From Siderastrea siderea (taxonomy: Eukaryota; Cnidaria; Anthozoa; Scleractinia; Rhizangiidae): a stretch of 64,000 bases of DNA. Numbering within the stretch: the stretch's first letter is position 1; each line of letters opens with the position of its first letter. The notes under the pieces are model-generated. The model worked only from the letters and a program-made list of their open reading frames with translations, made no database searches and had not been told where the DNA came from. Below are positions 31,900-47,783 of this stretch, piece after piece. The stretch covers positions 53,473,533-53,537,532 of the forward strand of contig OZ034967.1 in NCBI GenBank assembly GCA_964030785.1, given 5' to 3'. Position numbers and translations under genes: made by a program.

Positions 31900-32113
31900 A
31901 GTAGTTATAGAGTTGGCGGTTTTGGCGCAGTTTTATAAAAAACTTCGCTAAACCCGAACCAACTCTAACTACTTTCCATCTGATGGTTTACATCTGATTG
32001 TATTATTTTATGGAATTCTATATGTTTTTATTTCATGCGGAAAACCAACGCACTCTTCCATCGCGTGACGACAGACAACAGGAAGTCTATAATTCTCGGA
32101 AAAGCAGGAAGTT
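31900..32113. repeat. Left terminal inverted repeat
   Basis: The outer 138 bp (31900-32037) are identical to the inverse of 48938-49075. Diverged similarity continues to about 32113 (shared ACAACAGGAAGTCT, ATTCTCGGAAAA, CAGGAAGTTT). The outermost 74 bp (31900-31973) are self-complementary. Confidence 0.95.
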
Positions 32114-32313
32114 TTTCTCAGAAACAAGTCTAGACATGTCTGGTGAAAACAGGAAATGACTCATCTATTTTCCAAGGTCATGAGACGGTCACATGATATG
32201 ATATGATAGTCGTATGATTTTTTCAACCAATTAAAAGCGTACCCATAAATTTACCAGTTGATAAAAAATCTGATAAAATACAGATTTTGATAAATTTTCC
32301 GATAAAATACAAA

Positions 32314-32694
32314 ATGCCTGCCTCATCAGTAGAGCTGAGTTCCAGGTTTCAATCTGCGTGTAATAGAATTCAGGATTCTATTGAGGTTATTGAGAGCCAA
32401 ATGGGTAATGAAGAAGTCTTCACCTTTGATATCAACCGAGAGATTTATACTTTGGAGTCTTTGGATCTCAATGCAGTGGGGAATGCTGTGGATCGTTACA
32501 TTATTGTTCTTCAAGAATATAAGAAAATGATAACATCTGAAAGATCAAGGAGGAAATTGGCGGATCAAATAAGGAAGACTGCTGAAGTTAAAAATTTCAA
32601 AGAGGATCTGAAGGATAATCGTCAAAGGAGCCGATTATTGACTAACCCCTACCAGAGGAATCGAAATACTACATCACCAATGAAAAGTCAGTAA
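32314..32694 (+). CDS. Polinton hypothetical protein, 126 aa
   Basis: First gene inside the left repeat, transcribed towards the polymerase gene. Start taken at MPASSVELSSRFQSACNRIQ; an in-frame ATG 27 bases earlier is less likely because the 5' extension is low-complexity. Mostly predicted alpha-helical, with a basic C-terminal half (RSRRKLADQIRKT, LKDNRQRSRLLTNP). No family recognised. It lacks the TCTAA element seen before the virion genes, so early or regulatory expression is possible (inference). Confidence 0.6.
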   Translation: MPASSVELSSRFQSACNRIQDSIEVIESQMGNEEVFTFDINREIYTLESLDLNAVGNAVDRYIIVLQEYKKMITSERSRRKLADQIRKTAEVKNFKEDLKDNRQRSRLLTNPYQRNRNTTSPMKSQ

Positions 32695-32803
32695 AAATGA
32701 CCAGCTTGATGGGAAAGCTGTGGAACATAACGGACCATTAATTAGACTGTATTTGTTAGTACTTGTATGACAATCTCCACAGCTGTTGTGTGGTGTAATA
32801 TCT

Positions 32804-35800
32804 TCAGATCTTATAATGCCCGTAAGCGTGACTTTTGATTCCATCATTTGATATATATCTTTTGTCGTCAAAACAACTGAGTGAAACTTTATTAATCTCG
32901 TAACTACCTAGTTGATGGTTGATACTTCTTATTGTTTTCATAGTATGATGTATTTGTTTATTTTCTAATAAAACATTTTTATAGTCTTCATGCTTTATGT
33001 TGTTCTTTATAATGTTCTTTTTAATTCCTTTGGCTGTTTTTCCTACTTTCTGGTTGTCTTTTATGTAACTGTACATTTTTGATCGCAAACCGACAAATTC
33101 TGTGATTGGTATTCCAGCTGCTTCATCTTTGAATTTACCGATTACCTTTTTGTTTGTCTTATCTAAATACGGCGAGTTTTCTGAATAGTCGCTGTTATCA
33201 AATCGATCTTTATCATTCCAAAAGTCTCGGTAGACATCTTCAGCTTCGATCTCATATGTCAGACTGTCTGTGTCAGTGAATAGTAGTCTGGCTCTGTCTC
33301 CATACTTTTCTTTTATGTAGTTATAATGAAAATCATACATTAATGTCTTACTTAGATCCAGAATACACATACCTACATATGCCGGCCTGTTTAGAGTTAG
33401 CGTTTCTTTGATCTTATGCACTGCCACCAGATTTTCATTGAATATCTTACTGCTTACATAAGTTGGTTTAGAAGCCATTTTCAATAATTTATTTTCATCA
33501 GTAATAAGTCTGACATCAACTCTCTTTCTTATGTTCTCCATAGTTTTACCAAACACTGAGTTATTCATTAGCTTGAAGAAGTCTTTTTCGAATGAATTTT
33601 TCGCTTGAGTACGTTTTTGTGTATTGAAGTCAATGTATTGTTTGAGCCAAGGTGACTGATTGAATTCTAATACTCTGTGAACTTTCTTTACTTTTAATCC
33701 AAGATCAATATACAACTGCAGATTTCTATAGTGCAGAACATATTTTTCTTTGTCACATAATGTAGGAATCAGTTTATGCACCAGTCCTGTAGCTATGTTG
33801 AACTTTTTCTGTATGTTCTTACAATATCCAGACAACATGTCATCAGTTACTTTCACCTTTTCCGGTCCTAAAGGGTAGTCGTTATGAAGATTATGCAACT
33901 CTTTGGGGTATTCTAGATCAACTGCTAGTATCAATCCTTTATTACTGTTTTCATTATACTGAGCTAAATTGATTTTATTAATCTGCTTTTTCGTCAACCA
34001 TTTGAAACCACCAGTTGGTAGATATTGGCTCATAGCCCAACCGTATAAATTATTAGCATCAAGATACATAATGTACTTTGAGGGCGCATTCTCATCGTAT
34101 TCTCTCATGTACTTGTTATTCGCTTTTCCATATCGATTTGCAATATAAGATATACCACCACGCATACCTTTTTCAATGAATTGAAACATATCAATGTCCG
34201 TCATTAGTTCTAGTTGAATATCAGTCATCTTCAACATAGAATCCCATGACAAACCAGGAGATGTGAAGTAGTGACAGGGGTCAAGTTTGTAATACTGAAG
34301 ACAGGTCTTGCGGAAGTTTTCAAACACGTCGGCTAATAGAAGTATATCAGACTTAAGATATAGATTGTGGTATTCACCCATCGTTTGAAATTGAAATGTA
34401 TTCCACACTTTTTGAGCATGACAATAATCCTCGTCTGTTATATGCTCATTATTCAATATGCTGTAAAATTCTTCTTTCGTTGGTAATTCTGTTTTATTGA
34501 ATTTCTCAAAACTGTCCATGAAATCGTACGGATAAATACCTTTTCGTGTCATAAGATTGAATTGTTCTTTTTGGAATCTTTTGTTTGTATATTTTAAAGC
34601 TTCTGCTGGTAAGTTGCTGACTAATTTATCCAAACTTGAGCTCATGAATTGGAAACTGTCAATGAATGTCAGATGGTTACCAAGCATGAACGCCATATAT
34701 TTTTCCATATTGTTCGGTATGGCATTTATGTCCATTTTAATCTCTTTTCCGTTTTTGGTGTATTCATGTTTCTTAACAATAGCTCCAATCTCTTGCATTA
34801 TAAAATGGCTGTCATATCCTCTCAAATTATGGAATATAACAGGAATTTTAATTTCTTCTGGATTTATTCTGAGTTTCAGATTGCAGTCTTGATGTGCTGA
34901 GCCTCTGTATTTGCCGGTAATATGGCAATGATCTCTGACTCGAATGTCTTTATCAGTATATTTTTTATCGCAGATGTGACATGTTGTTGCTTTTTTGAAT
35001 TCCTCTTCATCCACTTCAGTCATTCTCAATGGTTTATCGAAATGTTTTTTCATTACTTTTTTACAGTATTTTACTTCTTTTAACATATTTTCCATAAATT
35101 TGTACACAGCCTTTTCACCTCTATATAGTTGTATTGGTTTTGTATGCTTATCATCATAACAGCAAACCACTTTATAACTATATCCACAGTCTGTATGTTT
35201 TTGGTAGGCTTCGGTGTATGATTTATTACTGTCTGGTTGACATCCTTGTACCTTTTCAGTTATAGCCTCGAAATCAGCATAAATGACAAATGGCACAGGT
35301 TGCTGTTTATGAAAGTTGTTGAATTTCAGTATGTTATTGTCTTTGTCAGGCATTTTTATTGCTTGCTGACCGTTAACTTGAATACAGTTTTCTTTGTGAT
35401 TGTTTAATACCCTGTCGGAACTGAAACATTGCAGGCAGTGCATACAAAAGTGTTTCCTATGTTCGTGTTTTGTTTGATTGAACATGAATCTGTTGAAATC
35501 CTTTATGAGAACATAATGCTTGTTTTCATCTTTCGTTATCAGTACTAGTTCCATATGATCTTCATACTTTTCTTTGGAAACATAGATAGGATATGGCTGT
35601 TTTTCTTCATATCCGAATACATTTATATTGATACTGTTTTGCTTCTCAATTTTGTTGTAATGTTTGACATTGACTGGAAATTCAACACCTGAGTAATCTA
35701 ACTTTTCAACGTATTGTTTGTCTGTCTTTTTTATTCTTTGAGGATCCTTGTCTTGTGGATTTAAATGTCGGATATGACACCATCTGAAACATTCATTATC

Positions 35801-36541
35801 CTCATTTTTCATGTTTATTAATCCCTTCTTTGAATTTCTCAGTTCAGAAGGCAGTTGGATATATGAGGATCCTTTCATGGGTTTGTATCTGACAATGTTG
35901 AGGTAATGGCTATCAACAGATTGGATCGTCCATCCTGAACCTTCTGATATCCACTGGGAAATCTGGTTTAAGATATTTTGTTTAGACATTTGTAATGCTT
36001 CATTGATTTCCATTTGATTGATTATTGTTTGAGGTGTACTATTGAAATATGCAGTCTTAATCACTATTTCACCATCAGAAATTTTATTGAATGTGACTTT
36101 CAATGTTTCAACATATTTCAAGCCTTTTATTTCGTTTAACAGTGTGTTGATATGAGATTCTGTAGCCTTTCTGGTGTTTTGCATTTGAACCAAAGGGTCT
36201 TTATTGTTTTTAATGCTGATTTGGTATGACTTAGTATAGCCTTTTAAAGCTTTGTCCGTTTGTTCTATTTTGGTTCTTGGTGTTGGAACTGGTTTATCCA
36301 TTTGTTTTTTGGTTCTTGGTGTTGGAACCGGTTTATAATTATCCCTGAATTCTGGGGGCGGTAGAATGATGTTTTCTTCATATTCTTTAGCCATCTGTTT
36401 GACACTCTTGCGGGGTGTTGGTATTGGTCTCCTTGGTGCTGGAACTGGCTTCTTCTCCTGCTTCAGAAGCAATTTGATAAGTTCTGATTTACTGAGTTTC
36501 TTCAAACTAGCTTTATCCATATTTATATGATTAGATTTCAT
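32804..36541 (-). CDS. polB: Protein-primed DNA polymerase B (pPolB), 1245 aa
   Basis: Replicates the element by protein priming from its ends (family knowledge). The 3'-5' exonuclease motifs are present: YADFEA (about 421-426), HNLRGYDSHF (571-580), YLKSD (728-732). The polymerase motifs are intact: motif A YLDANNLYGWAM (826-837), motif B NNSVFGKTMEN (993-1003), motif C FTDTDS (1088-1093). Two zinc modules precede or interrupt the exonuclease: C2H2 (C366, C369, H382, C386) and an HNH-like CHIC...DHCH...C (521-553). The N-terminus has a SAP-like helix (LSKSELIKLLLKQ) and four proline/arginine repeats (KPVPAPR, RPIPTPR, KPVPTPR twice). ATG at 36541; a second ATG seven codons on is also possible. 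All catalytic residues are present and there is no frameshift. Confidence 0.96.
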   Translation of the reverse strand: MKSNHINMDKASLKKLSKSELIKLLLKQEKKPVPAPRRPIPTPRKSVKQMAKEYEENIILPPPEFRDNYKPVPTPRTKKQMDKPVPTPRTKIEQTDKALKGYTKSYQISIKNNKDPLVQMQNTRKATESHINTLLNEIKGLKYVETLKVTFNKISDGEIVIKTAYFNSTPQTIINQMEINEALQMSKQNILNQISQWISEGSGWTIQSVDSHYLNIVRYKPMKGSSYIQLPSELRNSKKGLINMKNEDNECFRWCHIRHLNPQDKDPQRIKKTDKQYVEKLDYSGVEFPVNVKHYNKIEKQNSININVFGYEEKQPYPIYVSKEKYEDHMELVLITKDENKHYVLIKDFNRFMFNQTKHEHRKHFCMHCLQCFSSDRVLNNHKENCIQVNGQQAIKMPDKDNNILKFNNFHKQQPVPFVIYADFEAITEKVQGCQPDSNKSYTEAYQKHTDCGYSYKVVCCYDDKHTKPIQLYRGEKAVYKFMENMLKEVKYCKKVMKKHFDKPLRMTEVDEEEFKKATTCHICDKKYTDKDIRVRDHCHITGKYRGSAHQDCNLKLRINPEEIKIPVIFHNLRGYDSHFIMQEIGAIVKKHEYTKNGKEIKMDINAIPNNMEKYMAFMLGNHLTFIDSFQFMSSSLDKLVSNLPAEALKYTNKRFQKEQFNLMTRKGIYPYDFMDSFEKFNKTELPTKEEFYSILNNEHITDEDYCHAQKVWNTFQFQTMGEYHNLYLKSDILLLADVFENFRKTCLQYYKLDPCHYFTSPGLSWDSMLKMTDIQLELMTDIDMFQFIEKGMRGGISYIANRYGKANNKYMREYDENAPSKYIMYLDANNLYGWAMSQYLPTGGFKWLTKKQINKINLAQYNENSNKGLILAVDLEYPKELHNLHNDYPLGPEKVKVTDDMLSGYCKNIQKKFNIATGLVHKLIPTLCDKEKYVLHYRNLQLYIDLGLKVKKVHRVLEFNQSPWLKQYIDFNTQKRTQAKNSFEKDFFKLMNNSVFGKTMENIRKRVDVRLITDENKLLKMASKPTYVSSKIFNENLVAVHKIKETLTLNRPAYVGMCILDLSKTLMYDFHYNYIKEKYGDRARLLFTDTDSLTYEIEAEDVYRDFWNDKDRFDNSDYSENSPYLDKTNKKVIGKFKDEAAGIPITEFVGLRSKMYSYIKDNQKVGKTAKGIKKNIIKNNIKHEDYKNVLLENKQIHHTMKTIRSINHQLGSYEINKVSLSCFDDKRYISNDGIKSHAYGHYKI

Positions 36542-36657
36542 TATATAATATAACTATAAGTTTTCTTTTAAATGTTTATATTTATGTGCGTTCGAACGAA
36601 GTCAAGAATTCAAATGATCCAATTAATAGATCCTTTAAACTATATACATTATGTTAA

Positions 36658-36873
36658 TTATTTTGCATTGACGTTTTTGATATGCTTTTTTGATTTCAAA
36701 TGAATCCATTTGCCAGCAAGAGTATAATTACGACCAGTATTGCAAATATCACAATACCACTCTTTATTCAACATGTACTTCGTTTTTTGTTGTCTTAAAG
36801 CATTCTTTCTCTCCTCTTCAGTTGAATACTTTTTTGGTCTTCCTCGACCTCTCTTAACATTTATTTGTTCCAT
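36658..36873 (-). CDS. Small AT-hook and zinc-finger protein, 71 aa
   Basis: An AT-hook (KRGRGRPKK, residues 7-15) is followed by a single U1-type C2H2 finger (C41, C44, H58, H64). Likely DNA-binding. It sits between the polymerase and a second zinc-finger gene, upstream of the TCTAA-controlled virion block, so a regulatory or genome-packing role is possible. No named family assigned. Confidence 0.7.
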   Translation of the reverse strand: MEQINVKRGRGRPKKYSTEEERKNALRQQKTKYMLNKEWYCDICNTGRNYTLAGKWIHLKSKKHIKNVNAK

Positions 36874-36925
36874 ATATTAATACTATATGTTTATCCTTAA
36901 ATGACTTTGTCTTGTGCGTTTAAAT

Positions 36926-37441
36926 TCATTTAGTAAATTTGCGATTTCGATATAATTCTTTTTTAATTAGTCTATAGACTCGCTCACTTTTTTCCAAGTG
37001 CTTCGCCAAACTCATATATTTATCATTATTATTTCCCATCAATGCATAATATCGACGTCTTACATAATCTTCATAAGCATGCTCACGATCCAGACGTTCT
37101 TGATTATTTTTACGAATTTCATCTTCATCATCTGAATCAAAATCAGAATCGGAATCAGTATCGTAATGAATATATTCATGTTCGTCTTTGTAAAACAGTT
37201 CAAATTCTTCTTTAATCAGTCTAAAGACTCGCACACTTCTTTCCAAGTACTTCCAAAGAGGCCTAAATTCAGTATTTTCCATCAATATATCATATCGACG
37301 TTTTACATGATCTTCATAAGCATTCTTACGATCCAGACGTGCTTCATTGATTTTATGAATTCTAGTGAGAAGATGTTTGTCTTTTCTAAAACTATATTTC
37401 TTACAGACTTCGCAATACCACTGTTGTATTTCAGTATCCAT
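36926..37441 (-). CDS. Zinc-finger protein with internal duplication, 171 aa
   Basis: The N-terminal finger (C10, C13, H23, H29) resembles that of the neighbouring 71-aa protein. The rest is two copies of a 46-residue helical unit (about 35-80 and 116-162; shared RLDR..AYED.V.RRY..LM and ..LE.S.RV.RLIK.E), joined by an acidic DSDSDFDSDDEDE linker. Function unknown. It lacks the TCTAA element. Confidence 0.7.
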   Translation of the reverse strand: MDTEIQQWYCEVCKKYSFRKDKHLLTRIHKINEARLDRKNAYEDHVKRRYDILMENTEFRPLWKYLERSVRVFRLIKEEFELFYKDEHEYIHYDTDSDSDFDSDDEDEIRKNNQERLDREHAYEDYVRRRYYALMGNNNDKYMSLAKHLEKSERVYRLIKKELYRNRKFTK

Positions 37442-37492
37442 ATATATATAATCTATATATTATTTTATATTTAAATGATTGTTTAAACATGT

Positions 37493-37789
37493 TCACCACA
37501 GCAGATGGTAGCTCCAGTAATTAGCGTATTCTGGATCCTTATACGTCAATTTACCATATTTATTCTTTATCTTGGAGGCTCTTTTACGATATCGTAAACG
37601 TCTTTCTGGATCTTGGTGCTGTAAAAAATCTTCATGCATTCTATCACCAAAATGTATATTTTTACCATTTTTGAGAGTCACAACATATTTCTTATTTCTG
37701 CGGTTTGAATATCTCAAATCCTTCGCATTGTACAAGTGTTTGGCTCTGAATTTTAAAGTATTGAAATCTTCTCCAAACAATAGATTCAT
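37493..37789 (-). CDS. DUF5754-like virion-associated protein, 98 aa
   Basis: The signature KKYVVTLKNGKNIHFGDRMH, then DFLQHQDPERRLRYRKRASK and a C-terminal YANYWSYHLLW, match a small protein family common in large DNA viruses and Polinton-like elements (DUF5754, from memory). Basic, intronless, complete. Molecular role unknown; association with virions is family knowledge that I cannot test here. Confidence 0.65.
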   Translation of the reverse strand: MNLLFGEDFNTLKFRAKHLYNAKDLRYSNRRNKKYVVTLKNGKNIHFGDRMHEDFLQHQDPERRLRYRKRASKIKNKYGKLTYKDPEYANYWSYHLLW

Positions 37790-37910
37790 ATATGTATATG
37801 TTATATATTAATAGCCAGAAACAATCTGGTTTTTGGCTACCAGAAGCAAATAAACAGCAGTACTGTATCAATAGATATAATATATGTTAGATAATTCTCT
37901 TTAAAACATT

Positions 37911-38732
37911 TTATATATCCTTCAAGTCCTTGAACGGTATCCAACTGTTGAATTCATCACTATACCCCTTCCACTTCACCAAAGCTTGCTTCTTTTTATA
38001 ATTCCTCCGAATCACTTTATCAATTCTGAATACCATTTGTTCAGCTTTCAGTAATTCAGGTTCATAAAAACTACCTTGAATGTCTTCATCTCTCAGATCC
38101 TTCAGTTTGTATGTGACAGGAACAGTGTATTGGATTTCATCAACTGTGAAAATTTCCTCAGACCAATTTGGTGTATAAGACTTGTCGGATAATTTACGTT
38201 TGTACTTGCTTATCCTGACCTTATCACCGACTTTGAACTTTGGTTTCTGTCTTGATGTTTCCATATTACCATACAGATTAAAGTAGACAGTTCCTTCATT
38301 CTTCTTTTTACTGGCTTCATTTGGCGTCATCTTTGTGCTTGAATGTCTGGTGTTGTTATACTGTTTCACTAATTTTGGTAACATGTCAAGATACTGTGTA
38401 TTACCTTGAACTGTAAATTGTTTCCACATTTTGGTTTTGATTGTACGGTTCCATCTTTCACAAACTGACGACTTTTCCTCATTCTCAGTTGAGTACAAGG
38501 TTATTTTATTCTTATCAAGTAGTTCCTTAACATATTTGTTGTAATACTCTTTGCCTTTATCAGTCCAAAGATATTGTGGTTTTCTACCCTCTTTGAAGAT
38601 TGTTTTGAATGCTTCAGCAACAGTTTCTCCTTTTTTGTCTTTTAAAGGGACAATCCAACCATATTTAGAGAATACATCTAAAACCATAAGAAGATATCTG
38701 TAGCCAGCGTTCCATCGACTGAACTTTTGCAT
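37911..38732 (-). CDS. Retroviral-type integrase with C-terminal chromodomain; true start lies further upstream
   Basis: Integrates the element. The first catalytic Asp is in CSDIVEM, three codons before the first ATG. The open frame continues without ATG to 38921 (stop at 38922-38924). The second Asp is D58 (YLWTDKGKEYY), the Glu is E92 (SSVCERWNRTIK). A C-terminal chromodomain (about 222-273: RIDKVIRRNYKKKQALVKWK ... GYSDEFNSWIPFKDL) would target chromatin. A protein started at the only ATG would lack a catalytic residue. The frame is -1 relative to the overlapping PLA2 ORF, and a canonical slippery site lies in the overlap at 38873-38879. I infer synthesis as a frameshift fusion, or else decay of a former fusion. 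Confidence 0.93.
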   Translation of the reverse strand: MQKFSRWNAGYRYLLMVLDVFSKYGWIVPLKDKKGETVAEAFKTIFKEGRKPQYLWTDKGKEYYNKYVKELLDKNKITLYSTENEEKSSVCERWNRTIKTKMWKQFTVQGNTQYLDMLPKLVKQYNNTRHSSTKMTPNEASKKKNEGTVYFNLYGNMETSRQKPKFKVGDKVRISKYKRKLSDKSYTPNWSEEIFTVDEIQYTVPVTYKLKDLRDEDIQGSFYEPELLKAEQMVFRIDKVIRRNYKKKQALVKWKGYSDEFNSWIPFKDLKDI

Positions 38733-38782
38733 CTCAACAATATCAGAGCACCATAACTCGTCAACGCCGTTTACTAAAACAC

Positions 38783-38879
38783 GCCGTCGAGTAAAGTTAC
38801 GCTTTATGGGCTTATGAAGCTCATCAGCTAATTTTTCTTGCCAGTTTTTTTCTTCACTCGACGGCCTTTCCCGTTTTTT
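38783..38879 (-). promoter_or_regulatory. Candidate -1 ribosomal frameshift signal (PLA2 to integrase)
   Basis: In the PLA2 frame the codons ACA AAA AAC give the heptamer A_AAA_AAC (38879-38873). A 7-nt spacer (38872-38866) follows, then the arm ACTCGACGGC (forward strand 38856-38865), whose perfect 10-bp partner GCCGTCGAGT lies at 38783-38792 with about 63 nt between. Heptamer type, frame, spacing and stem all match -1 frameshift signals. The integrase frame is open from 38921 through the site. Confidence 0.7.
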
Positions 38880-39505
38880 GTCTTCCTTTGTTTTACGCCT
38901 AGACCTAGTTTCTGCTTCGTGTTAATCAAGAACCGAGCGGTTTGTCCCCATTTTGGCATCTGTCCATAAGGTATTCCATCCAATGACTTGACCATTTGTT
39001 TGTCACATTCACCTTTGTTTTTCCCCATATCCTAACAAATATCATGATGAGCTGCTATTTCATCCACTTTATTGTAAGGTTGTACGTGCCACTTGGTGAC
39101 CTCTCCAGTGTTCCTATCATACTCTAACTGTTTATCGAGAGGATTGTATGGTCCCATGTATTTATACTTTCCAGGAGTCCATCCAGCTTTTGGTTTCTGT
39201 ATTTTCCCAATTAGTTTATGTATATCAACACCAGCGCCATCCAAATCCTTTCTGTCGGTTTTATACTTTCTATTTGGTCTGATTTTAGTAGATAATTGAT
39301 TAAGCATTTCAGCACCTGTTTTTTGGATGAAAGGTTGAGCTTTTGATAATGCATAATCGATTGCCTTTTTCTGCAGTTTTGGGTTTCTCAAGGCTTCTGA
39401 TCCATAATATCTTCCCATTTCAACTGCTTTTTTTCCAAGCCAAGGAATACCGTGGTGAATCAATAAATCAGCACCAGTCGATGCTACTGTATCTAGTACG
39501 CCCAC
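38828..39505 (-). pseudogene. PLA2-like (parvovirus VP1u-type) lipase region, split by an in-frame TAG
   Basis: Predicted phospholipase A2 for membrane breach during entry. It carries a calcium-loop-like YMGPYNPLD and the catalytic HHD pair just before the break. A TAG codon at 39032-39034 interrupts one continuous frame right after HHDIC; the frame resumes in phase (DMGKNKGECDKQ) to 38828, ending in a basic tail. The 5' frame has no ATG (39505 is GTG). It lies -1 to the zinc-ribbon ORF 39493-39678, with which it overlaps. The N-terminal part has helical segments (GIPWLGKKAVEMGRYYGSEA) and the motif LDGAG, a possible protease site. Whether the TAG is decay or read through is open. Confidence 0.75.
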
Positions 39506-39678
39506 CCCTTTCGACGGGCCAACCCGTTTCCCGCTTGTTTAACGAATTTCGTCTTAGTGATTCCACATTCTGCACAAGTGCATTTAAGCATAAGCCTTCC
39601 ATTTTTAGCTTTAACATGTCGTTCACTTCCTGGCACACATTCTGTTACCTTTTTTTGTTTCACGCAATATGATTTCAT
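39493..39678 (-). CDS. Zinc-ribbon N-terminal module of the PLA2 protein, 61 aa
   Basis: Starts MKSYCVKQKKVTECVPGSER and has four Cys (C5, C14, and CTCAEC) in a zinc-ribbon-like arrangement, ending in ITKTKFVKQAGNG. The ORF stops at 39493 inside the start of the PLA2 frame, which lies -1. The heptamer A_AAG_GGG (39511-39505) sits in phase in the overlap. A paralogue with the same N-terminus follows upstream at 39700-40104. The start is preceded by TAATCTAATC, the putative late element. Probably the 5' part of the PLA2 gene. Confidence 0.7.
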   Translation of the reverse strand: MKSYCVKQKKVTECVPGSERHVKAKNGRLMLKCTCAECGITKTKFVKQAGNGLARRKGWAY

Positions 39679-39699
39679 ATATAATATGATTAGATTAGA

Positions 39700-40104
39700 T
39701 TAAGGTTCAATATATACGTTTTCATATTTACCAGTTTTTGGATTTTTCACCAAGCAAATAACAGTACCTTTTTTAGGATGAGTCCAAAACTTCTTACTGG
39801 TTATACCTGTTGGTCCTGTGAAAGCACCTTTCAAGATATCACCAGACCAATATCGGTCAAATACATGGTTGGTTGATGGAATTACTTTGCGAGTTATTTG
39901 TTCGGCTATTTTGGCTGCCTCAAAAGCTTTACCTAATGGATTTTCACCTCCCTTTCGGCTTTTGATGAATTTCGTCTTAGTGATTCCACATTCAGCACAA
40001 ATACATTTCATCATAAGTCTGTTATTTTTGGCTCTCACATATCTTTCACTTCCTGGAACACATTCTGTAACCTTTTTTTGTTTTACACAATAACTTTTGA
40101 CCAT
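39700..40104 (-). CDS. Zinc-ribbon virion protein, 134 aa
   Basis: The first 47 residues (MVKSYCVKQKKVTECVPGSE, CICAECGITKTKFI) are nearly the same as those of the 61-aa neighbour, showing a tandem duplication of the module. The C-terminal half differs (KAFEAAKIAEQITRKVIP, DRYWSGDILKGAFTGP, GTVICLVKNPKTGKYENVYI) and matches nothing I can name. Preceded by ATCTAACTC, in which the TAA is also the stop of the protease gene. Likely a minor virion component by position. Confidence 0.75.
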   Translation of the reverse strand: MVKSYCVKQKKVTECVPGSERYVRAKNNRLMMKCICAECGITKTKFIKSRKGGENPLGKAFEAAKIAEQITRKVIPSTNHVFDRYWSGDILKGAFTGPTGITSKKFWTHPKKGTVICLVKNPKTGKYENVYIEP

Positions 40105-40113
40105 ATATATGAG

Positions 40114-40413
40114 TTAGATATTTTTGAAATACTGTTCTAAGAATTTCTCATTATTCGTCGTATCATATATGTCGAAAACTTCCAACAGATCAAAATATGA
40201 TTTACCCTTATTCATCTCATTCAAAAAATATAAACAGAAGTAACCGCATGTTGTCGTCAGTAAATTTTGTATTTGATTGTTCTGATGAAGCAATGTTAAA
40301 TTCTTTTTTCTCGCGTGATTGACCATTTCTTGGAAGGGGGGCAAACCAAAACTATCAAAGTAATTGATGACGTTATCTTTGACATTTGTTGACACCCAAT
40401 GGCTACCGCTCAT
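40114..40413 (-). CDS. Adenain-like cysteine protease; true start lies further upstream
   Basis: Capsid-maturation protease of the adenovirus/Ulp1 clan. The catalytic His is in SHW (H5), the acidic partner in NYFDSFG (D20) and the nucleophile in TTTCGYFC (C56), with the usual Cys motif followed by LYFLNEM. The first ATG lies four codons before the His, so a protein started there would lack the N-terminal part of the fold. The open frame continues without ATG to 40665 (TAA at 40666-40668) and overlaps the 3' end of the pVI-like gene in the -1 frame. The overlap holds A_AAA_AAC (40659-40653) and A_AAA_AAG (40647-40641), both in phase. Inferred product: a pVI-protease frameshift fusion. Confidence 0.88.
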   Translation of the reverse strand: MSGSHWVSTNVKDNVINYFDSFGLPPFQEMVNHARKKNLTLLHQNNQIQNLLTTTCGYFCLYFLNEMNKGKSYFDLLEVFDIYDTTNNEKFLEQYFKNI

Positions 40414-40571
40414 ATAACTCGGTTCAAGATTGTAAATGAATAGAGCCTGTCTATGATTGTGAGGTACATTTTCATCTCGAGACAGAACATCTTTGATTGG
40501 GATATTCAGATATTTACACCGTTTTATTAAATCATAATTGCTTAATGGGACATTCTTATGGAATTTTGGTT

Positions 40572-41420
40572 TTACAACAAAATGTTTAACAGTGGGACGT
40601 TTTTGAAGGGTGAATTTTTCCCTAGGAGAAGACCCTCTCCCTTTTTTTTGTTGTTTTTTGTTTTTTTAGTCCCCATACCGATTGTACCGTCCGGCCAATT
40701 TCCATAAAAAGGCGGTGTTCTATAAGTTGGGATTAACAAACCACCATCCTGATTATCATAGGTTGGTTTTAGTATAGATCTGGGTGGTCTTTGTTTCGGT
40801 TGTCCCATCTGAGGGGCACCTTTACCAGTCATCTTCTTTATTGCCTCAATAGCTAAAGGGACTCCAATTGATGCAAGAAGAGTACCTAAGAACCCACCCG
40901 TTTGTACTTTTGTTGGTTTTATATGAACACCAGAACCTGTTTGTAGAGCATTTAATATATCCTTCTTTTGTTTGGTGGTCAAAAGATGTTTATATGTTAT
41001 CAACTGATCGATTTTATTTTGTGGTATGAGGAACCCACCGGTTTGAACACCTTTTCCGGATATCTTCTTAACAATCTGAGATGCTCCTTCACTAGCTGCT
41101 CCAGCTAAAGCTGACAAACCGATGGTCTTAGCAATAGTGGGACCAAAAGTTCTTCCAAGCGTCAGAACTGTAGACAGTAGAGATCCACCTACTTGCTTTC
41201 GAATGTTTGTTTTAGAAAGTTTAATGTCCATCCCTTTCTTAAGTTTACGATTTTTTTCCAATCTTTTTACAATGTTTAATGGAACATAAAGTGTGTCATT
41301 CCCAGATAGAGAGTCCTTTGTGAGCCTTAGAACTATTGTTTCTCTTTTATGATACGCTTTACTAAGATTCTTTTTCTGGTTTGGCGATAAACTAACTTTA
41401 ATTTCGTATAGTTGTGTCAT
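40572..41420 (-). CDS. pVI-like minor capsid protein, 282 aa
   Basis: Opens MTQLYEIKVSLSPNQKKNLS. A hydrophobic, Gly/Ala-rich central part (GGSLLSTVLTLGRTFGPTIA ... IGLSALAGAASEGASQIV) could be membrane-active. Two adenain-type cleavage motifs (ISGKG, MTGKG) and repeated QTGGFL segments divide the chain, and the C-terminus reads GLLLGKNSPFKNVPLL. Position beside protease and capsid genes and the cleavage motifs suggest a pVI-like internal protein. Start ATG preceded by TTATCTAACATATA. Its last 94 bases overlap the protease frame. Confidence 0.65.
   Translation of the reverse strand: MTQLYEIKVSLSPNQKKNLSKAYHKRETIVLRLTKDSLSGNDTLYVPLNIVKRLEKNRKLKKGMDIKLSKTNIRKQVGGSLLSTVLTLGRTFGPTIAKTIGLSALAGAASEGASQIVKKISGKGVQTGGFLIPQNKIDQLITYKHLLTTKQKKDILNALQTGSGVHIKPTKVQTGGFLGTLLASIGVPLAIEAIKKMTGKGAPQMGQPKQRPPRSILKPTYDNQDGGLLIPTYRTPPFYGNWPDGTIGMGTKKTKNNKKKGEGLLLGKNSPFKNVPLLNILL
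40641..40659 (-). promoter_or_regulatory. Candidate -1 ribosomal frameshift site (pVI-like to protease)
   Basis: Codons ACA AAA AAC AAC AAA AAA AAG of the upstream frame contain two consensus X_XXY_YYZ heptamers, A_AAA_AAC and A_AAA_AAG. A short hairpin (GGAGA/TCTCC) follows immediately, and GGGT in its loop could pair with a later ACCC. The structure is weaker than at the integrase site. Confidence 0.55.
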
Positions 41421-41494
41421 ATAATATATGTTAGATAAATTCTCTTTTAAAAAACATATTCATTTAAATTTTCATCGATGTAAAACTTATTTAT

Positions 41495-41865
41495 TTAAAC
41501 TATCATCAATTCGTTTCCAACTGTCTTTACTACAACCTCACTCTCGTAAAATACGATGCTATGAGCTCGGACGTTTGCTGTCGGGGCTACATTGAGACGA
41601 TAATGGAGAATCAACTGTTTAGGATCTCTCGTCACTACCTCTTTCTGATATGACAAATCGAAATACAATAATCCATACAAACTAGTGAAATTGGATACAT
41701 TAAGCTGTGTTCCTGAATTGTAATCGTTCTTACGAAATGCATATGACATGAGATCATTGAATATCCTGATTTTAGAATCTGCATCGTATTCTAGTTCGGG
41801 ATAGAACGTGTTGTTTCAATATTCTAAACGACAACTCGAGAGAGAGCTATTAGCGTCAGCTGCAT
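41495..41865 (-). pseudogene. Major capsid protein, C-terminal part, shifted and interrupted
   Basis: Continuing in the -1 frame after the N-terminal part: LNAADANSSLSSCRLEY, then an in-frame TGA (41816-41818), then FYPELEYDADSKIRIFNDLM and an open stretch to 41495 (SGTQLNVSNFTSLYGLLYFD, VTRDPKQLILHYRLN). The last strands of the second jelly roll are thus encoded but not joined. One frameshift plus one nonsense codon within 60 bases. Confidence 0.8.
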
Positions 41866-42783
41866 TCAATTGAAAGTGTCAAATAAATACGGACTCCTCT
41901 CTGCTTCATCATCATTTGGTCCGTCTGTCCTCTGGAGATATATAAAAACATGTTTAACGTCATCGATAGCTGGACTGATTTGAAACATATTCTGAATAGC
42001 TCTGGTATTTGCTGACTGATTGTAGAGATCTCGCATATATGTCCAGGTTGTTGGCTTGAGAAACTCTGAAACGAAATTACTATACATGCTGTCTTTTGGG
42101 ATTAATCTTGGGAGCCAAAGATACAATCTCTTTACTACAACACGACCAGGGTCTGTGCCATTTGCCATGTGAATCAGTTCACTGTCTTCGTTAAATGTAA
42201 GTTCAATTGTGAGCTGCATCGGAGGCAACATTTTTCTTTCTAATTCTTGAAAAAAGCTGTATCTGTTTAAGGGAAGCATCTCATTAATACTTTTAGCTCC
42301 CCCACCACCGTTGTTTTGTGCTGCTTGGGTTAAAATACGACGGGCCTCAAAACCTGTGTTTGTATTTGCTGTAGTCCCATCAGTATCAAGATACCAGAAC
42401 GAATTCTTTCCAACGGATCTACTATAATCATCACTGTATTCAAGGAGATTTTTGACATTCGTTATTCGATGCAAATTATCACTCTCATACACAATTTTGC
42501 CTGAAGATTTGATAACCATATGTCTGATTAGACTGTGAGATCCGTTTATCATGGTGATGCGAACCGCTTGAGCATATCCAGTACCATCTGCCTTTTTTTG
42601 AAGCTCTTTAGTTACTTCGAAATACCCATTGAAAAAATCGAACATTGTCGACCTATCGTTGATTGTGAATCTGTAACCTGTCTTTTTCTGGCTTTGATTG
42701 TTAGCAGGTTGCTCAATGACATTATCCAAATGGAAACGAACGTATTCATATCGTTGCAGATTTTCATTTGTTCTGAAACTCAT
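41866..42783 (-). CDS. Major capsid protein (double jelly roll), N-terminal 305 aa, truncated
   Basis: Main shell protein. MSFRTNENLQRYEYVRFHLD, TGYRFTINDRSTMFDFFNGY, LLPLNRYSFF-type residues (MLPLNRYSFFQELERKMLPP) and RLYLWLPRLIPKDS are typical of Polinton capsid proteins. The frame ends at TGA (41866-41868) after SPYLFDTFN, while recognisable capsid sequence continues in the -1 frame. No slippery heptamer is present at this junction, so I read it as a disabling mutation. Start preceded by TTATCTAAACTACTCATATA. Confidence 0.88.
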   Translation of the reverse strand: MSFRTNENLQRYEYVRFHLDNVIEQPANNQSQKKTGYRFTINDRSTMFDFFNGYFEVTKELQKKADGTGYAQAVRITMINGSHSLIRHMVIKSSGKIVYESDNLHRITNVKNLLEYSDDYSRSVGKNSFWYLDTDGTTANTNTGFEARRILTQAAQNNGGGGAKSINEMLPLNRYSFFQELERKMLPPMQLTIELTFNEDSELIHMANGTDPGRVVVKRLYLWLPRLIPKDSMYSNFVSEFLKPTTWTYMRDLYNQSANTRAIQNMFQISPAIDDVKHVFIYLQRTDGPNDDEAERSPYLFDTFN

Positions 42784-42881
42784 TTATATGAGTAGTTTAG
42801 ATAAAATTCACTCTTTATATAAACCATTTCCCACTTATTAGTCTATTTATAATTGGATAAAATTCACTTTTTAATAACATT

Positions 42882-43238
42882 TTATCGTCTTAATCCAGTA
42901 CCAGATATAAGTCTATTCAGAATTGTGTTGTAATCTTCTTGTTTTGGTTTAGTAGGTTTGGTTGGTTTCATTGATTGTTTAGTTGAACCGTGTAATTTTC
43001 TCATAATAAGCTCTCCGCTTTTTTCAGCTGCTTTTTTTCCCAGTTTGTCTCCAGCATGTGAAATACCAGATTCAAGCGCTTTTTTGGCAAAAGGTTTTAA
43101 AACCATTTCTGGAACTTTACTTAACACCCTTCCAACCGGTTTGAAAATGTTGTCAACAATGATCCCAGATCCTTTATGTTCATAAACAAATCGTCCAAGT
43201 TTTGGATGATAAATACGCTTGTATTCATACGACGACAT
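42882..43238 (-). CDS. Small basic virion protein, 118 aa
   Basis: Opens MSSYEYKRIYHPKLGRFVYE. Lys/Arg-rich with an amphipathic middle (VPEMVLKPFAKKALESGISH) and a TKPTKPK stretch; ends NRLISGTGLRR, where ISGTG is an adenain-type cleavage motif four residues from the end. Sits between capsid and penton genes. Could be a core or cement protein; no family recognised. Start preceded by TTAATCTAACTG. Confidence 0.7.
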   Translation of the reverse strand: MSSYEYKRIYHPKLGRFVYEHKGSGIIVDNIFKPVGRVLSKVPEMVLKPFAKKALESGISHAGDKLGKKAAEKSGELIMRKLHGSTKQSMKPTKPTKPKQEDYNTILNRLISGTGLRR

Positions 43239-43256
43239 ATATAACTATCAGTTAGA

Positions 43257-44018
43257 TTAATCTCTCTTCTCTCTTAAAATCAAACTGAATGAAGTGTCAC
43301 TATGATTAAGATCGATGATTCTCCTCTTACCATCTGTGATATAAATTCTTATTTTATTGATCGTATTTTTATTACACGGGTTGTACTGAACTCGTCGAGG
43401 CTCTTGTGTGAAACTATAACTCGGGGTGAGAGTTGAGGTACTGAAACTATATATAATATCTGACTCTTCACCATCGACAAGACTGTCACTTATCAAATCA
43501 CAATGAACATTCAATATTTCTCTGTCTTGTGAGAGATTAGGAATGTAATCTCCAACATTTACACTACTTGTTAGAATCTTTTTATTGAAACCAATAAGAT
43601 CATTAAAATTACTTTGAGTAAGATCTAATCTGTAATTTGAGGCTAGTGTTATTATTGTTCTGAATACAGTATCGTTAAACTCCAGAGTGATTGGATATTG
43701 AGGGTTTGATGAGGTCCCTGTTTTTGTTTTTTCTTTGATTAAATTGTCAAAATCAATGTAATTCCATACTCCAGGGTTGAATATAATTTCGATCCAATTA
43801 GCGCCACTATCTGTCGAATATCTTATTTTCTGATTATTGAGTTCTTTAGTCACATTAAACCAAGTAAATGACATTGAAATGATTCGGTCTAGGCCGATTT
43901 CATATTGTCTGTTTGAATCTAGTATTATCGGATTACTGTATTTGATTGTGAAATCCGATGGTTTATTACCATTTTGGTTTTTTACTGTATGACTGGATAA
44001 TACAAGTTGTCTATTCAT
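43257..44018 (-). CDS. Minor capsid protein (penton, single jelly roll), 253 aa
   Basis: Forms capsid vertices (family knowledge). MNRQLVLSSHTVKNQNG, SDFTIKYSNPIILDSNRQYE, ALTWFNV-like FTWFNVTKEL, LIGFNKK and NLSQDREILNVHCDLI are characteristic of Polinton pentons. Intact length for the family. The stop is immediately followed by the TCTAAC element of the next gene. Confidence 0.85.
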   Translation of the reverse strand: MNRQLVLSSHTVKNQNGNKPSDFTIKYSNPIILDSNRQYEIGLDRIISMSFTWFNVTKELNNQKIRYSTDSGANWIEIIFNPGVWNYIDFDNLIKEKTKTGTSSNPQYPITLEFNDTVFRTIITLASNYRLDLTQSNFNDLIGFNKKILTSSVNVGDYIPNLSQDREILNVHCDLISDSLVDGEESDIIYSFSTSTLTPSYSFTQEPRRVQYNPCNKNTINKIRIYITDGKRRIIDLNHSDTSFSLILREKRD

Positions 44019-44026
44019 TTATATGA

Positions 44027-45016
44027 TTAGTTTAGACTAAAATAGTTTTTGTATATTTTGTTGTATTGTGGCTTATTGAGTATTGAATTTCTCAACAAGA
44101 TGTCGAGAAGTGCGACACCTGTGTTTCTTAGCTCTATGCTATTATTACCTGCAACCATTGATCCGATAATCAGTTCAAGTTTTTTAATCATTTCTGTCGG
44201 ATTATTGAAAAACATTACCTGTCCACCTCTTTTTGTTTTTTTCTTCAAACCAGACCCTTTAATATTTGTTAATTTTTGATTATTGTAATTTATATAATCA
44301 TTAAGAACCTTTCTTGTATCTTGAATAATTTTTCTTCGATATTGAGCCTCAGCTTCAGTGATTGAACCACTATTTAATTTTTTAGTGATATTACTCCAAT
44401 AACCATTTAGTTTCAAACGTTGATCTTTAGCATCTTTCAAGATTTTTTTCAGATAAGCTTTACTCTTTTTATTATCCATATCCTTTTCTGTTAGACGTAA
44501 TTCAACATCATTGTAGTTCGGAATATTCAATTTATCTAAAGCTAGGTTAATTGCATCCTCCTCGAGAATGTTATAATCAGGTCCTTCTTCGTATTCAGGT
44601 GGAAGATCTTCAGGTTCATACATAAATGCTGGATCTATATACATTTGTTTTTCACCTGATGCTATATCCTCGAGGACGTCTTCATAACTTGGAGGTTTTG
44701 GAACCAATTGTTTCTCGTTTTCAGGTAAAACAGGTTGATCAAACAAATCGTCCAATCCATAATCAGGCACTTCATCATCAATAGCTATTCCATAATCTGG
44801 AACAGGTCGCTTTTTCTTTGGTAATCTTCTCAATGGCATTTTTGGAGATGTGAGTTCCTTTAACTCAGATGTTATAGGTTTGAAAAGTTTCTCTGCCTCG
44901 ACTTCACCCATTTGATCAGATATCGTTTTTTGTTTTATTGTCTCTCTTACTGTGTTAATCTTTTTACCAAGCTCGGATCGTTTCTCAGCCATTTCTTTCC
45001 ATTTGAGTAAACTCAT
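44027..45016 (-). CDS. Virion protein with two PPxY motifs, 329 aa
   Basis: Coiled N-terminus (KWKEMAEKRSELGKKINTVR), then a proline/acidic-rich region with two VPDYG repeats and two PPxY motifs (PPSY about 108-111, PPEY about 139-142), and a helical C-terminal half ending NYFSLN. IKGSG (about 252) fits an adenain-type cleavage site and is followed by LKKKTKRGG. PPxY motifs recruit NEDD4-type ubiquitin ligases in viral late domains and in adenovirus pVI (established knowledge); that role here is inference. Divergent from the ATPase gene. Confidence 0.65.
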   Translation of the reverse strand: MSLLKWKEMAEKRSELGKKINTVRETIKQKTISDQMGEVEAEKLFKPITSELKELTSPKMPLRRLPKKKRPVPDYGIAIDDEVPDYGLDDLFDQPVLPENEKQLVPKPPSYEDVLEDIASGEKQMYIDPAFMYEPEDLPPEYEEGPDYNILEEDAINLALDKLNIPNYNDVELRLTEKDMDNKKSKAYLKKILKDAKDQRLKLNGYWSNITKKLNSGSITEAEAQYRRKIIQDTRKVLNDYINYNNQKLTNIKGSGLKKKTKRGGQVMFFNNPTEMIKKLELIIGSMVAGNNSIELRNTGVALLDILLRNSILNKPQYNKIYKNYFSLN

Positions 45017-45070
45017 TATATCATTTGTTTACATAAAATTTCGTATTTTGTTCGAAAAAATTAGGGTTAT

Positions 45071-45144
45071 CATATATAAAAACGCTCGCATAGCGTGTCG
45101 CATAGCGTGTCGCCATGCGATAAAATTGTATAACATAGTATCAT
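45071..45144. promoter_or_regulatory. Divergent promoter region with tandem 12-mers
   Basis: Between the 329-aa gene and the ATPase gene: a TATA-like CATATATAAAA (45071-45081), then two perfect direct repeats CATAGCGTGTCG (45089-45100, 45101-45112) and a related CCATGCG. The only such repeat seen in the element. Confidence 0.5.
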
Positions 45145-45786
45145 ATGAAGATTCAAAATTACGACATTCAAGATGATGAAAACAACGATTTTGTTCAATT
45201 AAAGAGTTTCATGCCAAACCGATGTTTCAGGATGCTTATTTGTGCTCCCTCTGGTGGTGGCAAGACTAACCTTTTGCTTGATATGATATATAGGCTTCTC
45301 TATTTTGATAAGATATACTTTTATGCTCGAAATCTCTCCCAAAGCAAATATAAGCATCTGTTGAAATCTCTTGAACCAATATCAAAAGAGGTCGGTTATG
45401 ACGTAATCGAAGCAAGTAATGATGACATCATCCCTTTAACAGATTTGTCTGATGAAAACCAAAAATTAATCATATTTGATGACTATTTGAATACAGGTAA
45501 GAAAAATGACGAACGGATACGTGACTACTTTACCAATTCTAGAAACAAAAATTGCTGTTGTATATATTTAAGTCAAAGCTATTACGGAACTGATAAAACA
45601 ATAAGACTGAATAGTTCACATTTTTGTGTTTTTGATTTTCCTTCTATAAACGAGCAATCGATGATTTGCCGAGAACTGAACATAAATAAATCAGATTATC
45701 AGAAAGCTACTAAGGATCCATATAGTTTTTTGTATGTTGATAAGGTCAAAAAAAAGGTAGCCCGAAATTTCGAAGAAAAAATCTAA
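45145..45786 (+). CDS. Genome-packaging ATPase (FtsK/HerA, A32-like), 213 aa
   Basis: Pumps DNA into capsids (family knowledge). Walker A APSGGGKT (34-41), Walker B LIIFDD (108-113), then a sensor-like CIYLSQSYY stretch. The length is usual for Polinton packaging ATPases and the gene is intact. First gene of the plus-strand block, transcribed towards the fibre genes. Confidence 0.93.
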   Translation: MKIQNYDIQDDENNDFVQLKSFMPNRCFRMLICAPSGGGKTNLLLDMIYRLLYFDKIYFYARNLSQSKYKHLLKSLEPISKEVGYDVIEASNDDIIPLTDLSDENQKLIIFDDYLNTGKKNDERIRDYFTNSRNKNCCCIYLSQSYYGTDKTIRLNSSHFCVFDFPSINEQSMICRELNINKSDYQKATKDPYSFLYVDKVKKKVARNFEEKI

Positions 45787-45802
45787 ACTAATATTATATT
45801 AT

Positions 45803-46231
45803 ATGAGTTATACAAACGGTATTCTTAATCATGTTGATTCTCAAGGACAAGGTCAGATAGGCCCTAGAGGGTTGCCTGGGTTACCTGGTCCTAAAGGCGA
45901 TAAAGGCGATAAAGGCGACAAAGGCGACAAAGGTGATCGTGGACCTCAGGGTAGTGCCAGCGGTTCTGCTGATATTGACATGCAAAATAAGTTCGAGATT
46001 TTGCGATTAAAAAGCAATCCTTATCCTATCCACGGTGATCTGTCAAAGGTAATAAACTATCAGGACACGAGAAATATCTTTCTTTCGAAAAAAGAGGGTG
46101 GAAAAATGGAGGCAAGCATTGATATGAACAATAATACAATCTACAACGTAAAAGACCCAACACAGGCAGATCAAGCCACAAACAAAAAGTATGTCGAAAA
46201 TCAGCTTGAAAAAAAACTGGAAAGGAGCTGA
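45803..46231 (+). CDS. Fibre protein, collagen-stalk N-terminal part, 142 aa
   Basis: After 16 residues there are about 11 Gly-X-Y triplets (GPRGLPGLPGPKGDKGDKGD ...), a collagen-like stalk that would trimerise. Then comes a phage tail-fibre-like repeat (IDMNNNTIYNVKDPTQADQA, NKKYVENQ). The ORF ends where the next ORF, in the +1 frame, carries on the same repeat, so both are probably one gene with a frameshift in the run of eight A near 46210. Preceded by ATCTAAACTAAT, in which TAA is the ATPase stop. Confidence 0.8.
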   Translation: MSYTNGILNHVDSQGQGQIGPRGLPGLPGPKGDKGDKGDKGDKGDRGPQGSASGSADIDMQNKFEILRLKSNPYPIHGDLSKVINYQDTRNIFLSKKEGGKMEASIDMNNNTIYNVKDPTQADQATNKKYVENQLEKKLERS

Positions 46232-47501
46232 TATTGATATGAAAAATAAATCAATTACCAATCTTGATCTTCCATCAAACCAAAGAGACGCCGCATGTGT
46301 CGAGTTTGTTAACAACAGAATTGATGACATGACACAAAAAAAGTTTCTCAAAGTTGATGGCACCAACAATATGACTGGAAACTTGAATTTAAATAACAAT
46401 AAAATTATTAACTTACAAACCGATTACAGAGATTCAAAATCCGCAGTTAATGTTGATTTTGTGCAAGAGGAAATAAAAGATTTGAGAAATCTTGTCACTC
46501 AAAAAATTCGTGAATCTCAGATCAATAACTCAGGACAAAAACGAGACGCCTTCAGATACTTGATGGAAGACACTGATGAATCTTCGAGTGAAAACAATAT
46601 CGAGGTTTTGGGTATTGTCGATTTTCCCAATTCTCCACATCAAATTAATAAAAAAGCTTACCAACTTAAACTCTTGTTTGAAAAAAGCTCACCCTTCCAG
46701 TACCCCTCACGTCTTGGTTTTAACTTATATAAACTTCCAGTCGGGTATTACACAATGGTCGTTGAATGGTTTCCGCCGGAAATGAATGAGATAAGTGTAA
46801 CAGCTCAAGGAACAACGATTTCAATTTCTGATGAAACAACCAAAACATTCGAGAAGTACACCAAAACAGTTATCCATTTTCACAGATGGGGTAGCTCACC
46901 CCCACAATTTATATATCTCGATCTGCACGGTACAGTCAGTAAGCAATCGTTATTAACAATTGGGCATTTAATTGTCTATGGTGTTAAAGAAACAATTTCA
47001 AATGTTGACCCAAGTGTCTATGACACCGCTTTTGTTATTGAAAACGGAAAAATGGTTATGCAAACAGATTTGTCTTTAAACGGACACCAACTACGCTCTT
47101 CCATTCACCACATAAACGGTTTTTTAAATTCAACAAAAGGGGACAAAAATTTTGTTTTAAATGGTGCCGAAATAATTTCATTGCCGGGTGAAGCGATTTT
47201 GAAAAATATTGATATATATTGTACGCGTCCAATCACTTCTTCGGATTCTCATGTCACTGTACATAGACACAAAAAAATATCTTTGAAACTCAAAACATCT
47301 TTACGGAATTTTTTTACTGGAACTCTAAGCTCTTCAAGAAATTTTACCTCAGAAAAAAGTGGGTGGTATCAAACGATAAACCCAAATTCTTTCCAAATGC
47401 CTTCGTCCGGGATTTTGGCTTTTGAACTAAATATGAATGATGATATTTGGAAAAGTTACAACGCAATTATACTTCGTATCGAGTATCAAACAAGTGCGTG
47501 A
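46191..47501 (+). CDS. Fibre protein, shaft and knob part, 436 aa
   Basis: Two more shaft repeats (ADIDMKNKSITNLDLP, GNLNLNNNKIINL) continue the pattern of the upstream ORF. A C-terminal domain of about 300 residues rich in beta strands follows (YKLPVGYYTMVVEWFPPE, FHRWGSSPPQFIYLDLHG), which I take as the receptor-binding knob by position. The displayed ATG lies inside the overlap and may not be used. The frame relation (+1) differs from the -1 junctions of protease and integrase, favouring an indel. Confidence 0.75.
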   Translation: MSKISLKKNWKGADIDMKNKSITNLDLPSNQRDAACVEFVNNRIDDMTQKKFLKVDGTNNMTGNLNLNNNKIINLQTDYRDSKSAVNVDFVQEEIKDLRNLVTQKIRESQINNSGQKRDAFRYLMEDTDESSSENNIEVLGIVDFPNSPHQINKKAYQLKLLFEKSSPFQYPSRLGFNLYKLPVGYYTMVVEWFPPEMNEISVTAQGTTISISDETTKTFEKYTKTVIHFHRWGSSPPQFIYLDLHGTVSKQSLLTIGHLIVYGVKETISNVDPSVYDTAFVIENGKMVMQTDLSLNGHQLRSSIHHINGFLNSTKGDKNFVLNGAEIISLPGEAILKNIDIYCTRPITSSDSHVTVHRHKKISLKLKTSLRNFFTGTLSSSRNFTSEKSGWYQTINPNSFQMPSSGILAFELNMNDDIWKSYNAIILRIEYQTSA

Positions 47502-47655
47502 TTACTTTCCACAAAAAAATTTACATTTATTATATAGCACAATGCAGGATATCCATCTGATTGGAGCATGGAATGCTTTTTAGAATATATTATTATCCCA
47601 AAAGAAATAATGAGGATTCCGAAGAAGATAATGAATAATCTAACTTTATAATATA

Positions 47656-47778: not shown

Positions 47779-47783
47779 TATAT

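Follow-up and report, generated by a model that had tools for sequence, protein, structure and literature searches.

Integrases made by frameshifting are a hallmark of retroviruses, and transposases made by frameshifting are a hallmark of bacterial insertion sequences. Retroviruses place an integrase-containing enzyme behind a structural-type protein and in the -1 frame relative to it. The frameshift signals of MMTV, IAP, BLV and HTLV have the heptamer AAAAAAC and a spacer of 6-8 nt, and both AAAAAAC and UUUAAAC occur with 5-7-nt spacers at many viral sites, as described in passages of PMC3835772. Among DNA transposons, the orfA/orfB genes of bacterial insertion sequences use -1 frameshifting and usually produce the transposase as the trans-frame product, and the telomere-bearing elements of Oxytricha are said to require frameshifting (both in passages of PMC5009743). 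For adintoviruses and meldviruses, excerpts of PMC11071296 mention slippery -1 sites that KnotInFrame proposed close to the 3' end of Penton, as well as a similar frame relation suggested for Hexon and Adenain. The elements Sf Maverick 1 and 2 are presented in sections of PMC5803895 as having a PLA2-bearing CAP and INT on separate ORFs. Passages retrieved from the open-access full-text literature contained no report of a PLA2-integrase frameshift.

The Polinton and its PLA2-integrase junction

We analysed a 64,000-nt stretch of the Siderastrea siderea genome (the window). It contains a complete element that is a Polinton/Maverick by its repeats, integrase and ATPase (Table 1). The terminal inverted repeats are 144 nt long, 99% complementary and start with AGTAGT, and on both sides the element is bordered by CTCGGT, a target-site duplication of 6 bp without mismatch. 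The integrase frame scores 45.8 bits for rve and 30.4 bits for Chromo, both of which exceed the cut-off, and also matches solved retroviral integrases. An A32/FtsK-like packaging ATPase is encoded on the plus strand (Pox_A32, 33.5 bits for a cut-off of 22.8). The polymerase candidate is a 1249-aa ORF, whose only domain match is endonuclease VII, a domain that the relevant section of PMC5803895 likewise gives for Maverick POLB; a search of PDB sequences with this ORF gave no match. A protease-like ORF, the adenain candidate, reaches 14.3 bits for Peptidase_C5, which is under the cut-off of 21.3. In the capsid region, ORF 41866-42783 gave no match in Pfam and PHROG searches. This ORF and ORF 41495-41815 resemble one gene split over two frames (41495-42783, minus strand), possibly through a frame break in the window copy.

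Several other features of the element were observed. ORF 48262-48831 (minus) matches Pox_VLTF3, a late transcription factor, with 28.0 bits for a cut-off of 25, and a DUF5754 ORF (37493-37807, minus, 60.7 bits) adjoins the integrase on its downstream side. Upstream of PLA2, a small Cys-rich ORF is duplicated in an 85% direct repeat (39538-39669 and 39961-40092). On the plus strand, the region 45761-47501 has collagen-like GPKGDKGDKG repeats (23.9 bits, under the Pfam cut-off of 27.2) and, after them and in a different frame, a 449-aa ORF of fibre-like look.

Table 1. Features of the element and of its two frame junctions, in window coordinates, and copies with an ATGA overlap
Feature	Location	Strand	Basis or remark
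Polinton/Maverick element	31900..49075	.	terminal inverted repeats and target-site duplication
Integrase frame, rve core and chromodomain, 336 aa stop to stop	37911..38921	minus	profile matches
PLA2-domain frame (0-frame), PF08398	39032..39538	minus	stops at in-frame TAG 39034-39032
PLA2 0-frame continuation past this TAG, to TAG 38830-38828	38828..39031	minus	frame reading
Slippery heptamer A_AAA_AAC, in PLA2 phase	38873..38879	minus	frame reading; conserved in copies
Spacer, 7 nt	38866..38872	minus	heptamer-to-stem distance
5' arm of predicted 14-bp stem; dual-coding stretch	38852..38865	minus	folding
3' arm of predicted 14-bp stem; integrase codons F-T-R-R	38783..38796	minus	folding
Second in-phase A_AAA_AAC; protease-like frame is -1 to ORF 40572-41459	40653..40659	minus	overlap reading
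ATGA over the 0-frame TGA	L007-L009, L012, L015, L019, L028, L045, L058, L072, L079		first eleven of 18 copies
ATGA over the 0-frame TGA	L086, L095, L097, L102, L116, L140, L142		remaining seven of 18 copies

PLA2, heptamer, stem and integrase all lie on the minus strand. Frame reading confirmed the initial annotation in that the integrase frame is open up to 38921 and -1 to PLA2, the two frames overlapping from 38921 to 38828. It also bore out the lack of an ATG ahead of the first catalytic Asp: this Asp is residue 60 of the frame, whereas the first Met is residue 64. At the junction, the PLA2 0-frame reads ACA AAA AAC GGG AAA GGC CGT CGA GTG AAG, which places the annotated heptamer in phase; it is the sole in-phase X_XXY_YYZ within the overlap. 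We rejected the A7 run at 38851-38845 as another slip site, its A_AAA_AAA and A_AAA_AAC being out of phase and its length differing between copies.

The 10-bp stem annotated 7 nt past the heptamer is present, with core arms GCCGTCGAGT (38865-38856) and ACTCGACGGC (38792-38783). Folding extends it to a helix of 14 pairs, one of them G.U, between GCCGTCGAGTGAAG (38865-38852) and CTTTACTCGACGGC (38796-38783). Its distance from the heptamer falls within the roughly 5-9 nt looked for at a -1 frameshift site. The predicted energy is -31.4 kcal/mol over 98 nt. When the integrase frame was recoded synonymously 2,000 times, no version reached this value (mean -13.3, s.d. 3.6). Among 1,368 windows of 98 nt covering both strands of the element, three were at or below it: the junction and two at the element ends. 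The predicted stability of the stem in the window is beyond what codon usage leads one to expect.

The window copy does not have an intact PLA2 frame. Some 150 nt ahead of the heptamer, this frame runs into the TAG at 39034-39032, a codon absent from many relatives, and its N-terminal part apparently shifts frame near 39540. This copy has thus undergone some decay, and we therefore put the question to the family instead of the single copy.

Conservation in same-genome copies and database proteins

Copies were searched with five integrase queries in the same 831-Mb genome (402 contigs). Each query gave about 3,600 first-look candidates, 118-126 of which were scored. The set comprises 172 junctions (L005-L176, including that of the window), the top matches first, then other integrase subfamilies. 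Being the best-scoring integrase matches, these copies are related to one another and in a better state than the average copy, and the counts below refer to copies and should not be read as numbers of independent events. Conservation at the DNA level refers to this one genome, and the database evidence consists of peptides.

The integrase is -1 to PLA2 in 165 of the 172 copies, which represent 98 distinct junction sequences. A canonical heptamer occupies the equivalent place in 162 of these 165, as A_AAA_AAC in 144 and T_TTA_AAC in 18. The check proposed in the initial annotation, run here on same-genome copies, thus upheld the conservation of both the -1 relation and the heptamer. The three other -1 copies have T_TTA_AAA (L105), A_AAA_AAA (L133) and G_AAA_AAC (L026). 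In the group L103-L115 the 0-frame ends with GGT TTA AAC TGA in 12 of the 13 copies, with the same stem after it; L105, with its T_TTA_AAA, has no stop directly after the heptamer. T_TTA_AAC is also found in L058, L098, L121, L131, L138 and L139. As a control, a stretch of 100 PLA2 codons preceding the junction was read in each of the 96 sufficiently long -1 copies: these 9,600 codons contain 6 X_XXY_YYZ, none of which is A_AAA_AAC or T_TTA_AAC.

The 0-frame stop lies 0, 4, 8 or 12-14 codons past the heptamer, whose position is constant. The PLA2 residues at the heptamer vary (T-K-N, P-K-N, G-L-N), as do those of the integrase frame (K-K-R, F-K-L, F-K-R). Judging from these sequences, the slippery shape is constant at the junction and the encoded residues of neither frame are. 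The integrase frame of L171 is interrupted by a stop that lies between the heptamer and the LADEL motif. PLA2 and integrase share a single frame in five of the 172 copies (L083, L084, L160, L169 and L170), and two are ambiguous (L161 and L172), each with an extra frame change near LADEL. Upstream of the junction, the PLA2 part exists in at least two clearly distinct versions, PKWGQTARF and RQWGHWLARN, and in a third one in L173. Differing PLA2 versions are joined to one junction cassette, which suggests that recombination took place just upstream of it.

The spacer is 7 nt long in all 78 copies measured. The initial annotation had looked to the conservation of the stem, and this largely stood: of the 14 pairs, 14 are formed in 78, 13 in 51 and 12 in 1 of the 130 copies scored, so that 129 keep 13 or 14. 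In the recoding test, 51 distinct regions (98 copies) gave a mean z of -3.0, and the observed energy was reached by 102 of 10,200 recodings. Changes in the 3' arm are mostly pairing-neutral (CGA/CGG opposite U, TTT/TTC opposite G). Covariation of this arm is incomplete: in 23 of 78 copies, a pair is lost through the change of ACT to ACC. Because the 5' arm codes in two reading frames, its constancy by itself says nothing about the RNA. The evidential weight for a structure is carried by codon choice in the 3' arm and by a replacement hairpin. A different integrase N-terminus, AALSNYDDW, is found in 27 of 158 copies, and in these another hairpin takes the place of the stem, starting 6-7 nt past A_AAA_AAC, with predicted energies of -10.9 to -13.2 kcal/mol over 60 nt (four distinct versions). 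Synonymous diversity along the integrase (37 copies, 34 distinct) showed no clear drop at the stem, and site entropy along the junction is confounded by mixed families.

The search of a protein database with the integrase gave 6,661 proteins, of which 120 were listed; the sources of the database proteins may include the same genome. Among the matches listed, the Oculina patagonica protein P0070 is 85% identical to the integrase. Single-frame PLA2-integrase proteins, with many differing junctions, account for 34 of the 120 listed rows: 33 have both Pfam domains and P0047 was assigned by sequence, while the motif script alone found 32, missing P0034 and P0061. The cluster of the fused protein P0008 has 98 members. 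Single-frame relatives, which the initial annotation had named as contrary evidence, do therefore exist among copies and database proteins, but as a minority; among the copies, the -1 relation predominates. Other listed rows include stand-alone integrases, several of which begin at the Met past the first catalytic Asp. One database protein, P0001, has two tandem integrase cores in its sequence.

Stand-alone PLA2 proteins number 209 (P0121-P0329), 169 of them with a readable tail. These tails are of the type X-K-N in 136 proteins, L-N in 28 (a few doubtful, e.g. GLNSKY) and other in 5. The residue X is S in 53, T in 30, Q in 29, P in 16, R in 3, A in 3 and K in 2, and every one of these residues possesses an NNA codon. 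At a single place ahead of an identical ending, some tails have K-N and others L-N, as in GLQKNARRR and GLNARRR, both followed by the stop. This alternation fits AAA AAC and TTA AAC, as if the heptamer, not the protein, had been kept. When the database peptides were decoded in two frames, 3 of 13 integrase tails found a compatible PLA2 partner. It forces GGT TTA AAY TRR (T_TTA_AAY) for P0045 and P0067, and C_TTA_AAY, which is not a strict X_XXY_YYZ, for P0081 with P0194; the other 10 tails, including that of the window, found no compatible partner in this decoding. In IMG/VR, no relatives were found by integrase, integrase alignment, PLA2 alignment, PolB or a 17-base junction pattern, four candidates (L001-L004) being rejected as chance matches, and none were found in GTDB genomes.

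Production of the integrase

Taken together, these data make it likely that programmed -1 ribosomal frameshifting at the heptamer, aided by the predicted stem, produces the integrase fused to PLA2. We confine this claim to the family and do not extend it to the window copy itself, because the PLA2 of the latter carries a TAG upstream of the heptamer. The frames, the heptamer, its spacing, the predicted stem and their conservation in same-genome copies and in database peptides are direct observations. The retrovirus-like frameshifting initially proposed for this Polinton gains its support from the family-wide combination of -1 relation, heptamer and stem, from which we infer the production itself.

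Ribosomes would slip back one base at A_AAA_AAC, or at T_TTA_AAC in sister lineages, and the predicted stem 7 nt downstream would assist the -1 shift. Most ribosomes would terminate at the 0-frame stop and release the PLA2 protein alone, while a minority would continue into the integrase frame and produce the PLA2-integrase fusion. Frameshifting would thereby keep the integrase scarce, and its fusion to the PLA2 protein could bring it into particles. The existence of single-gene fusions points to a PLA2-integrase protein that is either tolerated or of use. Against a frameshift-only view, single-frame fusion genes can spread too, as seen in the P0008 cluster.

Alternatively, the integrase could be translated alone, starting at a near-cognate or AUG codon, through termination-reinitiation where stop and start overlap (AUGA, UUGA, CUGA), or from its own transcript, which we consider unlikely. 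An integrase-frame ATG is found at or after the heptamer in 18 of the 165 copies, always as ATGA (Table 1), and upstream of the heptamer in 38, three copies having both. CTGA occurs in L006 and TTGA in the 27-copy subfamily with the other hairpin, and some database integrases begin with MSNDWSQQ or MSNYDDW, although these are protein records and the real start codon may differ. However, 112 of the 165 copies have no integrase-frame ATG from the upstream stop to LADEL. The independent ATG named beforehand as evidence against frameshifting was thus encountered, at or after the heptamer, in a minority only. In addition, the ATGA copies retain the heptamer, and the 0-frame stop shifts from 0 to 14 codons past the heptamer while heptamer and stem stay. 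Separate initiation leaves unexplained why A_AAA_AAC or T_TTA_AAC is kept in one phase and at a fixed distance from the stem. Some lineages may add termination-reinitiation or switch to it.

The initial annotation regarded decay as the main alternative, an ancestral single PLA2-integrase frame having been broken by a 1-nt indel in an A run. Single-frame fusions do exist and the window copy is partly decayed, but the -1 relation is the common state of many copies, with 0-frame tails that end at a few set places, and decay is untenable as its origin. The fusions moreover differ at the junction, by one extra A in different runs or by deletions, a pattern to be expected with the -1 state as the hub; we give this explanation very little credence. 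Slippage of the RNA polymerase on the A run, adding an A to part of the mRNAs, seems equally improbable. The commonest heptamer has six A and several DNA fusions carry seven; however, T_TTA_AAC/T is present in 18 copies and implied by many database PLA2 tails, and these heptamers, with no run longer than 3, speak against slippage. Least probable of all is splicing that would join PLA2 and integrase in frame, as it needs neither an in-phase heptamer nor a stem, and passages of PMC8097293 describe the ORFs of intact vertebrate elements as intronless.

Besides the PLA2-integrase junction, a second in-phase A_AAA_AAC was found in the element (Table 1). Residue 85, within SYMSGSHW, is the first Met of the protease-like frame (40114-40665). 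In 18 further stretches that were fetched, the protease motif is present in 12 and the junction also in 11. By reading, the junction is a clean -1 in 8 of these 11, with 0-frame tails that end in NSPFKNVPLLNILL or NSPF(K/N)GIPLLGAIL before the stop; it is in frame in L177, and L178 and L180 have an extra frame change. The heptamers at this junction vary across copies (A_AAA_AAA, A_AAA_AAG or A_AAA_AAC). The protease, too, may be a product of -1 frameshifting. We tentatively give a little less than an even chance to a retrovirus-like expression programme on a DNA genome in the Polintons of this animal lineage. It would comprise two -1 frameshifts, a gag-pro-like one from a capsid-side protein into the protease and a pol-like one from PLA2 into the integrase. 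Heptamers and hairpins would be swapped with phase and spacing kept, and protease and integrase would be rationed and delivered in particles.

If true, frameshifting of the integrase would represent a convergent use of this process in self-synthesising eukaryotic DNA elements. It would also explain the startless or decayed look of Polinton integrase and protease ORFs, and would point to a particle-borne integrase, which bears on whether Polintons make virions.

Comparison with known frameshifting systems

Sf Maverick 1 and 2 share a similar gene set with the Polinton described here, including a PLA2-bearing CAP and a chromodomain integrase. Unlike in the window family, their INT is reported as its own ORF, and the sections of PMC5803895 that describe them report no frameshift. 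Adintoviruses and meldviruses are related elements that have an integrase and an adenain; the predictions in the excerpts of PMC11071296 include neither a PLA2-integrase case nor a test across copies. The telomere-bearing elements of Oxytricha are eukaryotic DNA transposons too, but of a different kind.

Bacterial insertion sequences resemble the Polinton in being DNA transposons whose recombinase is a trans-frame product. They differ from it in using bacterial ribosomes and sites and in having no virus-like genes, and their orfA generally encodes a DNA-binding protein, whereas the upstream frame of the Polinton encodes PLA2.

Unlike retroviruses, the Polinton is a DNA element, among whose scanned ORFs no reverse transcriptase was found, and its upstream protein has a PLA2 domain. 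In comparison with retroviral signals, its predicted structure resembles a long-range stem, and a pseudoknot is not part of the prediction. The junction nevertheless resembles the retroviral gag-pro and pro-pol signals in its heptamer, its spacing and its predicted downstream structure and, as in retroviruses, the integrase follows a structural-type protein, to which its frame is -1.
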